From: an uncultured Eubacteriales bacterium
Lineage (GTDB): Bacteria; Bacillota; Clostridia; Oscillospirales; Oscillospiraceae
Length of the DNA stretch: 38,283 bases
NCBI GenBank assembly: GCA_900319275.1
Contig: ONNS01000016.1
Span: 1 to 38,283 of the forward strand
Reading direction: 5' to 3'
Below the pieces are notes generated by a model that was not told where the DNA came from, did no database searches, and saw only the letters and a list, made by a program, of their open reading frames with translations. A program made the position numbers and the translations under genes. This document shows, piece by piece, positions 7,715-20,773 of the stretch (within the stretch, counting starts at the first letter, position 1; every line of letters starts with the position of its first letter).

Positions 7715-7825
7715 CCGTACATGAGTCTCACAGCTTCAGAAAAGACGCCGGGCCCTGTCCGAACACAGGCCGTGATGACGACGCCTTTTGCGGTTTCCCG
7801 CCCGTTACTCCCCCATGGATAGGTA
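7715..7825 (-). promoter_or_regulatory. yybP-ykoY-type manganese riboswitch aptamer
   Basis: The minus strand shows the conserved blocks of this class in order. GGGGAGTA is followed by a small CGGGAAACCG hairpin. Then comes GTCGTCA, a variable GC-rich hairpin (GGCCTG / CAGGGCC), the CCGGCGTC return strand pairing with GGCGTC, and a closing GAGAC. These are the residues that build the paired Mn2+ pocket in known structures. A terminator and a membrane transporter gene follow, as is normal for the class. The exact P1 boundary could not be fixed by eye. Confidence 0.72.
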
Positions 7826-7830
7826 ATATA

Positions 7831-7926
7831 TAATTTCGTCTCCAATCGCTGAAAGCGATTTAGGAAAACATAGTTTTTCCTAATCCTTTGCATGTCTTCA
7901 TGCAAAGGATCGGAGACTACAATGCA
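7831..7926 (-). repeat. Cloverleaf repeat A, copy 2 (inverted)
   Basis: Read on the minus strand this matches bases 1-95 with five differences. One G:C pair of the middle hairpin has become A:T on both sides. One change turns an A-T pair near the outer stem into G-T, one is in a loop, and one T is lost. The GTCTCC / GGAGAC closing stem (7838-7843 and 7912-7917) and all three hairpins are kept. It lies directly upstream of the riboswitch leader. Confidence 0.85.
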
Positions 7927-11302: not shown

Positions 11303-11470
11303 ATACTGTTTTCAAATTAAAATCAAAGATTTTAATTTGAGCTTTTGCAAAGCCTAAGTGCCGCATACATGCGGTTGGCTTTGCAAAAGTCGTCTCATAC
11401 GAACTCTACGCCACTGCGGTGGCTATCAAAAGCTTGAAAGGCTTTTCAAGCTTTTGATCAGAGTTCAGTA
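11303..11470. repeat. Multi-hairpin repeat C, copy 1
   Basis: The 168-bp element is co-linear with 20443-20610. It contains a 13-bp AT-rich hairpin (TCAAATTAAAATC, loop AAA). It also contains a long hairpin whose outer arms are CTTTTGCAAAGCC / GGCTTTGCAAAAG and whose inner tip is CCGCAT / ATGCGG. Last is a three-way junction closed by GAACTCT / AGAGTTC, holding GCCAC-TGCG-GTGGC and a 15-bp hairpin starting ATCAAAAGCTTGAAA. It has no T-run of terminator type. It lies between the response regulator gene and the secreted hydrolase. Confidence 0.9.
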
Positions 11471-19149: not shown

Positions 19150-19201
19150 AAGATAAAAAATATCGACAAATCCAGATTCGGAATCTGGATTTGTCGATAT
19201 T
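19150..19201 (-). terminator. Terminator of the GMP synthetase gene
   Basis: A near-perfect 21-bp stem (19159-19179 with 19181-19201, arms starting AATATCGACAAATCC) is followed on the minus strand by TTTTTTATCTTAT. Confidence 0.88.
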
Positions 19202-19227
19202 CGTATACTTGCGCGTTATCCTCAGCC

Positions 19228-20418
19228 TTATTCGTATTCGATCGTGGCCGTGGGCTTTTTCGTCACGTCGTAGACGCAGCGGGTGATGCCGGGGACCTCG
19301 TGGGTGATGCGGTCGGCGACCTTCTCGAGGAAGTCCCAGTCGAGGCGCTCGATGCTCGCGGACATGGCGTCGCGGGTGTTGATCGCGCGGATGATGCAGA
19401 TCCACTCGAAGGCGCGCTTGCCGTCCTTGATGCCGGTGGCCTTGAAGTCGGGCACGACCGTGAAGTACTGCCAGACCTTCTTGTCGAGACCGGCCTTGGC
19501 GAACTCCTCGCGGAGGATCGCGTCAGACTCGCGCACGGCCTCAAGACGGTCGCGGGTGATGGCGCCGACACAGCGCACGCCGAGACCGGGGCCGGGGAAG
19601 GGCTGACGGTTGACCATGCTGTCGGGCAGGCCGAGCGCGGCACCGACCGTGCGGACCTCGTCCTTGAAGAGGAGCTTGAGCGGCTCGACCAGCTCGAGCT
19701 TGACCTCGTCGGGCAGACCGCCGACGTTGTGGTGGGCCTTGATGCCGTCCTTGCTCTCGAGGATGTCGGGATAGATCGTGCCCTGGCCCAGGAAGCCGAT
19801 ACCGCTCAGCTTCGCGGCCTCTTCATCGAAGACCTTGATGAACTCGGCGCCGATGATCTTGCGCTTGCTTTCGGGCTCGGCCACGCCGGCGAGCTTGTCG
19901 AGGAAGCGGTCGGTCGCGTCGACGTAAATCAGGTTCGCGCCGAGCTGCTTTTCAAACACGTCGATGACCTGCTGGCTCTCGCCCTTGCGCATCAGACCGT
20001 GGTTGACGTGGATGGCCGTGAGCTGCTTGCCGACGGCCTTGATCAGCAGGGCCGCAACGACAGAGGAGTCGACGCCGCCGGAGAGGGCCAGCAGCACGCT
20101 GCCGTCGCCGATCTGCTTGCGCAGCAGGTCGACCTGGGCGTCGATGAAGGCCTCGGCCAGGGCGGGGGTGGTGATGCGCTCCATGCTCTCGGGGCGGAGG
20201 TTGCCGTCGAGGATGCCGGACACGGGATAATGCTCCAGCGCGCTCACCGCGGCGACAAGCTGATCGTCCGTCGCCGTGCCGTCATAGGTGACAACAGCCT
20301 CACCGGCCACGCGGCTGACAACGGCCTTGGAAACGCCGGGCACCGCCTCGAGCGCGGCCTTGACCTTGGCTTCGCACTTTTCGCAGCCCATGCCGGTGAT
20401 AAAGAGTACTCTCTCCAT
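19228..20418 (-). CDS. guaA: HMA domain fused to GMP synthetase ATP-pyrophosphatase, no glutaminase domain
   Basis: The 396-residue protein has two parts. Residues 1-70 form a heavy-metal-associated domain with GMGCEKCEAKV (Cys12, Cys15), PGVSKAVV and VVTYDG. Residues 80-396 are the complete C-terminal two thirds of GuaA: ATP loop LALSGGVDSSV (111-121), GTIYPDILESKDGIKAHHNVGG, RQPFPGPGLGVRCVG and the dimer end YDVTKKPTATIEYE. This part converts XMP to GMP using ATP and ammonia. The class I glutamine amidotransferase domain of about 200 residues that normally precedes it is absent. The start follows AAGGAGA and there is no frameshift or upstream remnant of a glutaminase. Either ammonia is used directly, a separate glutaminase subunit exists elsewhere, or a full-length guaA is also present. 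Confidence 0.9.
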   Translation of the reverse strand: MERVLFITGMGCEKCEAKVKAALEAVPGVSKAVVSRVAGEAVVTYDGTATDDQLVAAVSALEHYPVSGILDGNLRPESMERITTPALAEAFIDAQVDLLRKQIGDGSVLLALSGGVDSSVVAALLIKAVGKQLTAIHVNHGLMRKGESQQVIDVFEKQLGANLIYVDATDRFLDKLAGVAEPESKRKIIGAEFIKVFDEEAAKLSGIGFLGQGTIYPDILESKDGIKAHHNVGGLPDEVKLELVEPLKLLFKDEVRTVGAALGLPDSMVNRQPFPGPGLGVRCVGAITRDRLEAVRESDAILREEFAKAGLDKKVWQYFTVVPDFKATGIKDGKRAFEWICIIRAINTRDAMSASIERLDWDFLEKVADRITHEVPGITRCVYDVTKKPTATIEYE

Positions 20419-20442
20419 GGGAATCGCTCTCCTTTGTAAATA

Positions 20443-20610
20443 ATACTGTTCTCAAATTAAAATCTTTGATTTTAATTTGAGCTTTTGCAAAGCCTAAGTG
20501 CCGCACAAGTGCGGTTGGCTTTGCAAAAGTCGTCTTATACGAACTCTACGCCGCTGCGGCGGCTATCAAAAGCTTGAAAGGCTTTTCAAGCTTTTGATCA
20601 GAGTTCTGTA
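20443..20610. repeat. Multi-hairpin repeat C, copy 2, in the GMP synthetase leader
   Basis: The element has the same length and order of hairpins as 11303-11470, with 11 base differences. Four of these form two compensatory pairs (T:A to C:G at 20506/20509 and A:T to G:C at 20553/20560). One turns a T-G wobble into C-G, four are in loops, one is in the CGTCT linker and one is at the outer edge. It lies between the promoter and the ribosome site of the guaA-like gene, so it is transcribed as part of that mRNA. Confidence 0.9.
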
Positions 20611-20614
20611 TCAA

Positions 20615-20682
20615 ATCCGGCGGAGATAATCGTAACTATCTGCCGCCGGATGTATTATACTGTATTTCTTTTCTTAACACAA
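20615..20682 (-). promoter_or_regulatory. Promoter and 5'-end hairpin of the GMP synthetase mRNA
   Basis: TTGTGT (20677-20682) and TATAAT (20654-20659) are 17 bases apart on the minus strand. The predicted RNA begins almost directly with a hairpin whose arms are ATCCGGCGG-c-AGATA and TATCT-CCGCCGGAT (20615-20651), which would shield the 5' end. No purine or other known riboswitch pattern was recognised in the 230-base leader. Confidence 0.75.
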
Positions 20683-20773
20683 GAGCAAAGTCAAGCCGAC
20701 CCTTGCAAAATTCACGAATTTCCGCCGTGAAATTTTGTTGAAAAAGCTTGAAAACCGGTGTTTTCCGGCCAGC

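Follow-up and report, generated by a model that had tools for sequence, protein, structure and literature searches.

The window, by which we mean the whole 38,283-nt stretch of DNA analysed here, encodes a protein in which a metal-binding HMA domain is joined to the core of a GMP synthetase (GuaA) that carries no glutaminase domain. The account that best explains the data as a whole, and which we consider likely, is that of an ammonia-dependent GMP synthetase paired with a canonical enzyme across two nitrogen regimes, with the HMA domain tuning or protecting the enzyme in one small lineage. A bolder version, in which ammonia feeds GMP synthesis throughout the order via a clade of glutaminase-less GuaA enzymes and a captured HMA domain additionally brings direct control by copper or another soft metal in one lineage, appears doubtful to us; if it were true, guanine nucleotide supply would be linked to metal stress in the lineage with the fusion. 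The greater interest lies in the glutaminase-less enzyme rather than in its metal domain.

The fusion gene and its distribution

The fusion gene (19228..20418, minus strand) is a single uninterrupted frame of 396 amino acids with an ATG start, preceded at a distance of 8 nt by the ribosome-binding site AAAGGAGAG (20427..20435, minus strand), as a sequence-only reading of this DNA had described. That reading had also reported a canonical HMA domain with the motif GMGCEKC, followed by complete ATP-pyrophosphatase and dimer domains without an amidotransferase domain, and profile searches (Pfam, NCBIfam) confirm both statements. PF00403, whose cut-off is 24.8, scores 54.2 bits on residues 4–61 (20236..20409, minus strand), including the predicted metal-binding CxxC motif of C12 and C15 (20374..20385, minus strand), which none of the three distinct fused proteins has lost. 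Alignment with stand-alone paralogues, that is, related enzymes without HMA domain and glutaminase, places a junction at 20149..20235 (minus strand), made up of the last part of the HMA stretch and of the N-terminus that is native to the stand-alone form (N-x-RPE-x-M-x-RITT). Behind it lie the ATP-pyrophosphatase (PP-loop) domain (19510..20148, minus strand), with the P-loop SGGVDSS (20062–20082, minus strand) and the lid IKAHHN (19726–19743, minus strand), and the C-terminal dimerisation domain of GMP synthase (19234..19509, minus strand; PF00958, GMP_synt_C, residues 304–395, 121.5 bits), which brings the protein to its end in KPTATIEYE.

At the level of the whole enzyme, TIGR00884 scores 432 bits over residues 91–396 and NF000848 438 bits against a cut-off of 400, the latter profile being covered from position 196 only. 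PF00117 (GATase, the glutaminase domain) finds no match in the frame at E-values up to 1, and the Cys, His and Glu of a GuaA glutaminase are absent from it. The motifs of the GuaA ATPPase (P-loop, DxxES, lid and C-terminal KPPxTxE(F/W)x) can each be recognised; the lid motif IK(T/S)HHN has Ala at the T/S position, and in KPPxTxE(F/W)x the second Pro is replaced by Thr and F/W by Tyr. The earlier idea that the HMA domain takes the place of the glutaminase therefore holds in part: the one is present and the other absent, but no direct replacement occurred, since the N-x-RPE-x-M-x-RITT N-terminus of an already glutaminase-less enzyme persists behind the HMA domain. A terminator-like hairpin lies downstream of the gene (19158..19202, minus strand), such sites being no more numerous in the region than in shuffled sequences.

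Upstream, the leader region (20400–20720) folds strongly (z −11) and contains a structured, dispersed repeat of 168 nt (20443..20610, minus strand; the earlier reading's repeat C) that is 93% identical to a copy at 11303–11470. The source genome holds four copies or near-copies of this element, including those in C96 and C87 (the latter 130 nt long), and none was present in the four other genomes searched (G085, G068, G348 and G065, the last of which shares the fusion). No Rfam family matched the window at gathering thresholds. With no such match, and with an element that is dispersed and missing from a fusion-bearing genome, we rejected a riboswitch or a guaA-specific leader; the suggestion that the repeat adds a further layer of purine control is likewise not borne out. 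The presence of this dispersed repeat in the leader is incidental, and it may affect expression there. Elsewhere in the window, inverted repeat pairs at 1–103 and 7825–7926 have arms of 62 and 44 nt that are 95 and 93% complementary, with about 7.7 kb enclosed.

As the window stems from a draft genome (3.04 Mb, 161 contigs, 97.7% complete), an artefact that joined a guaA fragment with a gene resembling copZ has to be weighed. Identical architecture in one open frame occurs, however, in three other assemblies, namely RUG13498 (L128), UBA3758 (L129) and SRR873601_bin.80 (L130), at 85, 85 and 84% identity by tblastn; in the protein alignment, identity to the window protein is 86% for L013, which encodes the same protein as L129, and 83% for L130. 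RUG13498 and UBA3758 encode one and the same protein (their genes differ at 6 nt), so the four assemblies hold three distinct fused proteins, two of them in addition to that of the window. The recurrence of the fusion across four assemblies (83–86% identity) excludes an assembly error joining two genes, the objection that the earlier reading had itself raised, and we regard a chimera as practically out of the question.

The fusion is rare. Counting the source genome, it was found among the matches listed in 2 of 101 genomes of the genus sample, 1 of 350 of the family, 1 of 247 of the order and 1 of 398 of the phylum, the last with a 130-residue query from the HMA domain to the P-loop at an E-value of 1e-22, a strict cut that, together with the limited number of candidates scored, could miss divergent independent fusions. 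On these counts we rejected a widespread HMA fusion. A scan of species genomes used patterns confined to the HMA part of the fusion, and its fourth match (Demequina, L131) was to the HMA domain alone. A few rows of the fusion searches begin in the linker (query 47–61), some of them running across a stop codon, and none reaches the CxxC motif. In the open-access literature, we found no report of a GMP synthetase with an HMA domain, nor of one described as lacking its glutaminase domain.

Descent of the glutaminase-less core

Glutaminase-less paralogues of GuaA are common in the genus. At least 84 of 101 genomes of the genus sample carry one, fused forms included (tallied by eye among the matches listed; three paralogues are incomplete). 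Among the matches listed, the stand-alone forms are 67–80% identical to the window protein in alignments that begin past the HMA domain, and many of these genomes also encode a canonical GuaA with 50–55% identity to it. The family sample contains a second form of the paralogue, about 430 amino acids long, with a truncated glutaminase. In one such protein (L068), residues 7–80 match positions 1–76 of the 190 positions of PF00117, and an alignment of 12 truncated forms with three canonical enzymes shows that the half bearing the catalytic Cys, His and Glu is missing.

In a tree of 81 rows (54 labelled stand-alone and 18 truncated; L081 is a truncated-GATase form), canonical GuaA stands apart (100/100), and the stand-alone and HMA forms group together (100/99). 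The truncated-GATase forms branch first, at forks with values of 80–95 that are not all starred, and the HMA fusions form a single nested clade (100/100); stand-alone enzymes from another genus are sister to it (79–83% identity; 98/83). A second tree, which included references from E. coli and M. jannaschii, recovered the HMA clade again (100/100), with both long-branched references on the canonical side. From these alignments and trees, the most likely history is an order-wide paralogue clade that arose by stepwise loss, leading from canonical GuaA via a truncated remnant without the catalytic triad to an enzyme without any glutaminase, and then to a single, nested gain of the HMA domain. The order of branching, and the native N-terminus that the fusion retains, make it most likely that decay of the glutaminase preceded the addition of the HMA domain.

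Among known systems, the window enzyme shares ATPPase domain, dimer domain and catalytic residues with the two-domain GuaA of E. coli (1gpm; 329 bits), from which it differs by the missing glutaminase and the added HMA domain. The best match in the PDB is subunit B of the M. jannaschii GMP synthetase (6jp9; 333 bits), a stand-alone ATPPase and dimer domain that shares the DAMTA-type stretch; the archaeal type differs in its partner GATase gene, none of which was found for the window enzyme in the source genome, and it too has no HMA domain. The truncated GATase remnants indicate that the paralogue, unlike archaeal subunit B, descends from a two-domain enzyme. The same logic of a PP-loop synthetase without a glutaminase is found, with a different substrate, in NadE, the ammonia-dependent single-domain NAD synthetase, for which PMC3376133 describes the use of free ammonia in vivo without a glutaminase. 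By analogy, the paralogue clade would be the GMP synthetase counterpart of the NadE state, reached by loss, and its members should combine NadE-like chemistry with GuaA descent, lacking both the defining glutaminase of GuaA and the archaeal partner subunit. An order-wide clade of this kind contrasts with Table 1 of PMC3376133, in which GMP synthetase is 100% glutaminase-fused across 730 genomes, with no case of 'No Glnse'.

Origin and role of the HMA domain

Among the eight genomes searched, the best matches to the HMA domain outside the fusions are C-terminal-side HMA domains of large CopA-type ATPase frames (830–957 amino acids, one of 720; 42–56% identity). The fused domain has the GMxCxxC signature and the CEAxVKxAL stretch in common with the HMA domains of CopA-type ATPases and with CopZ chaperones; it differs from them in being attached to an enzyme of nucleotide biosynthesis and in scoring below the cut-off of the CopZ metallochaperone model (NF047957; 52.6 bits against 85). 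In an HMA-domain tree of 66 columns, the fused domains form one clade (99/100), apart from N-terminal copper-ATPase HMAs (95/88). They fall on the side of the C-terminal ones, which they resemble, with lower values (88/82). In a small lineage, a relative of the C-terminal HMA domains found in copper-type ATPases would have been joined once to the N-terminus of the enzyme.

The domain has changed faster than the enzyme behind it. Between lineages, HMA identity is 56–68%, compared to 88–91% for the core, and dN/dS is 0.19–0.28 (upper bootstrap limits 0.42–0.53, 59 codons), compared to 0.07–0.12; the uncorrected pN/pS of the HMA domain is 0.41–0.43, with silent sites near saturation. The CxxC motif is invariant across the fused proteins, though HMA identity falls to 56%. 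Judged by these ratios, the HMA domain is under purifying selection, with weaker constraint than the core, and this selection and the CxxC motif together fit metal binding. From its sequence, the domain would probably bind Cu(I) or another soft metal via CxxC and thereby tune or protect the enzyme, metal-dependent regulation of the enzyme, suggested by the earlier reading as control of purine synthesis by copper or another soft metal, being the weakest inference that we draw.

The HMA domain could instead be a passenger, an in-frame capture tolerated on a free N-terminus, with weak or no metal binding and with GMP synthesis unaffected. Such a reading agrees with the rarity of the fusion (three distinct proteins), its single origin, the faster evolution of the domain and its surroundings in the window, where by eye no metal genes were seen beside the fusion gene. 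It sits less well with a CxxC motif kept in 3 of 3 proteins despite HMA identity down to 56%, or with the above dN/dS values, all of whose upper bootstrap limits lie at or below 0.53 (59 codons). We rate a passenger as a serious possibility that falls short of being probable, and about as likely as a tuning role. The fusion is a rare natural test of wiring a metal-binding domain into nucleotide synthesis.

Nitrogen supply of the paralogue

The sites of the ATPPase that matter for catalysis and binding are largely preserved in the paralogue. When 28 positions were matched by motif to sites whose importance is known from mutagenesis and structures (PMC10526850), 24 of them proved identical in 75 of 75 paralogue rows; the remaining four are I226 (V/I/L) and A228 (A/S), both in the lid, P389 (74 of 75 rows) and T390. 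Row selection by script had relied in part on the P-loop, H[HM]N and FPGPGL, so that only the other positions provide an independent test of conservation. The residues that contact XMP are kept. The second Pro of KPPxTxE and the Phe within the canonical DFMTA stretch are replaced by other residues in the paralogue; A351, a position in the dimer domain, is found in 74 of 75 paralogues, where 6 of 6 canonical rows have F. Annotation masks the loss of the glutaminase, as the NCBIfam model with the title 'glutamine-hydrolyzing GMP synthase' is matched by each of the 27 members in the alignment; the window protein exceeds the cut-off of this model.

The distinct signature in the dimer domain (A351 versus canonical F) might be taken to mark an aminase of some other substrate, such as a modified or rare purine nucleotide, rather than a GMP synthetase. 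The DAMTA stretch is, however, also present in the M. jannaschii ATPPase, the XMP-contacting residues are retained, and many genomes show no GuaA-type match besides the paralogue. Moreover, it lies in purine operons of the order guaB-guaA (L090), purB-purA-guaA (L265) and purD-purL-guaA (L273), in which IMPDH and purL were called by NCBIfam and purB, purA and purD by Pfam. We therefore consider another substrate very improbable and continue with a GMP synthetase.

According to PMC10526850, ammonia supplied from outside can serve the ATPPase unit in vitro, for which the glutaminase is not required, and Table 1 of the same paper includes ammonium Km values of 10.8–174 mM for known GMP synthetases. 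These values are poor, so that use of free ammonia requires either high ammonia or an improved enzyme. The gut and the rumen are ammonia-rich, and an XMP aminase using ammonia was reportedly described early on in Aerobacter. With its catalytic residues kept and its glutaminase absent, the paralogue would aminate XMP with free ammonia instead of glutamine, and the ammonia-dependent GMP synthesis suggested from the sequence alone stands as its likely chemistry; ammonia would be used in vivo as well. The open-access titles and abstract openings listed revealed no ammonia-using GMP synthetase clade of this kind; what they offered on XMP aminase was a mutagenesis paper on Corynebacterium, and on GMP synthase and ammonia in Oscillospiraceae a riboswitch paper.

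Alternatively, the paralogue may be one half of a two-subunit enzyme that borrows a glutaminase in trans, either from a separate subunit or from the GATase domain of canonical GuaA. Archaeal GMP synthetases operate in this manner (PMC10526850), and canonical and paralogue genes lie close together in some genomes. The interface helix residues DxxES and KDEVR are also kept, but as they are catalytic as well, their retention is uninformative. In the source genome, PF00117 has two matches, canonical GuaA and PyrG, and no gene for a separate, archaeal-type GATase subunit was found there, so the independent glutaminase subunit that had been envisaged is rejected for this genome.

A query with canonical GuaA over 23 hand-picked genomes extends this picture. 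Ten of them hold the paralogue only and nine canonical GuaA too; one (G160) has an additional divergent two-domain match, and three (G151, G235 and G233) are without a GuaA-type enzyme. Six of the 10 paralogue-only genomes are 90–97% complete, and all six have an IMPDH-family match, four of these at 35–38% identity to the query. Their GATase matches number 16, including three paralogue remnants. From the other 13, 10 ORFs were scanned, of which nine are TrpG/PabA, HisH, PyrG or CarA and one belongs to no family, none of the 10 reaching the GuaA N-terminal cut-off; the three others resemble CarA, HisH and PyrG by eye. These assignments argue against a two-subunit enzyme, which we hold to be improbable. 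In these genomes the paralogue may depend on free ammonia, or it may make use of another enzyme's glutaminase.

In the order sample (at most seven candidates scored per genome, matches at E-values up to 1e-60), the paralogue is the only match in 45 of 247 genomes and is joined by at least one further match, not all verified as canonical, in 55, by eye among the matches listed (G556 at a contig end) and in drafts or species representatives, where a canonical guaA might fall in a gap. Where no other GuaA-type protein was found beside the paralogue, as is often the case, guanine nucleotide synthesis would depend on free ammonia.

The source genome does contain a second guaA, as the earlier reading had asked: a canonical GuaA of 513 amino acids with GICYG and QFHPE motifs is encoded on contig C130, and an IMP dehydrogenase exceeds its NCBIfam cut-off. 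This canonical guaA is flanked by an amt-PII fusion on one side and glmS on the other, with glutamine synthetase III, a type I-family glutamine synthetase that scores below the NCBIfam cut-off, an ANTAR regulator and pyrG nearby. A cluster with an amt-PII fusion, guaA, glmS, glutamine synthetase III, a glnA-like gene, an ANTAR regulator and pyrG spans L084:3973-15428. The order glnN-glmS-guaA-amt also occurs in L186, L190, L193, L200 and L201.

We compared the flanks of 31 paralogue and 21 canonical genes, chosen for long contigs (mean flank length 15.1 versus 18.2 kb), by tblastn. At least one of the six other cluster genes was found in 20 of 21 canonical flanks (pyrG alone in four), compared to 2 of 31 paralogue flanks, glmS in both cases (Fisher p 4e-11, a nominal value, given selected and mutually related loci and queries taken from one canonical flank, L084). 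The 31 flanks omit eight paralogue stretches, three of which have both genes; over all stretches of at least 6 kb, some of which overlap or repeat a genome, a cluster gene occurs in 5 of 73 paralogue-only stretches. Four stretches hold canonical guaA and the paralogue within 13 kb of each other, two of them with pyrG, and the two genes are adjacent in G596, G515 and G462, so that their settings are not always separate. With canonical guaA placed in a nitrogen-assimilation cluster, each of the two enzymes most likely has its own nitrogen regime: canonical GuaA, fed by glutamine, would act when ammonia is scarce and the ammonia-fed paralogue when it is plentiful, a division of labour that we infer from the contrast between the flanks.

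Directly upstream of the glutaminase-less guaA, a gene resembling F420-0:gamma-glutamyl ligase was observed in L260, L261, L263, L264 and L274, and upstream also in L089 (PF01996 in L260, the others by eye). The fusion gene of the window, by eye, has no purine genes beside it.

Downstream of guaA-like genes, tyrosine-type integrases were recognised by eye at L083:10292-11290, L086:9225-10298 and L088:4363-5451, as well as in L063, L066 and L102, and 25 loci with a guaA-like core, some of them redundant, also hold integrase sequence. The integrase of G065 is 100% identical (rounded) over 310 amino acids to those of L063, L066 and L102, which come from other genera. The 3' end of the guaA-like gene looks like an attachment site, and guaA figures in literature on integrase attachment sites. 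In rough, hand-made classes, the end of 21 of 47 minus-strand stand-alone matches of the family sample lies less than 400 bp from the start of a contig, compared to 2 of 22 mostly truncated-GATase matches; assembly breaks caused by mobile elements at the 3' end would give such an excess. Between the near-identical fused genes, an integrase is located downstream in RUG13498 (L128) and none was found in the UBA3758 stretch (L129); the two are possibly an occupied and an empty integration site.
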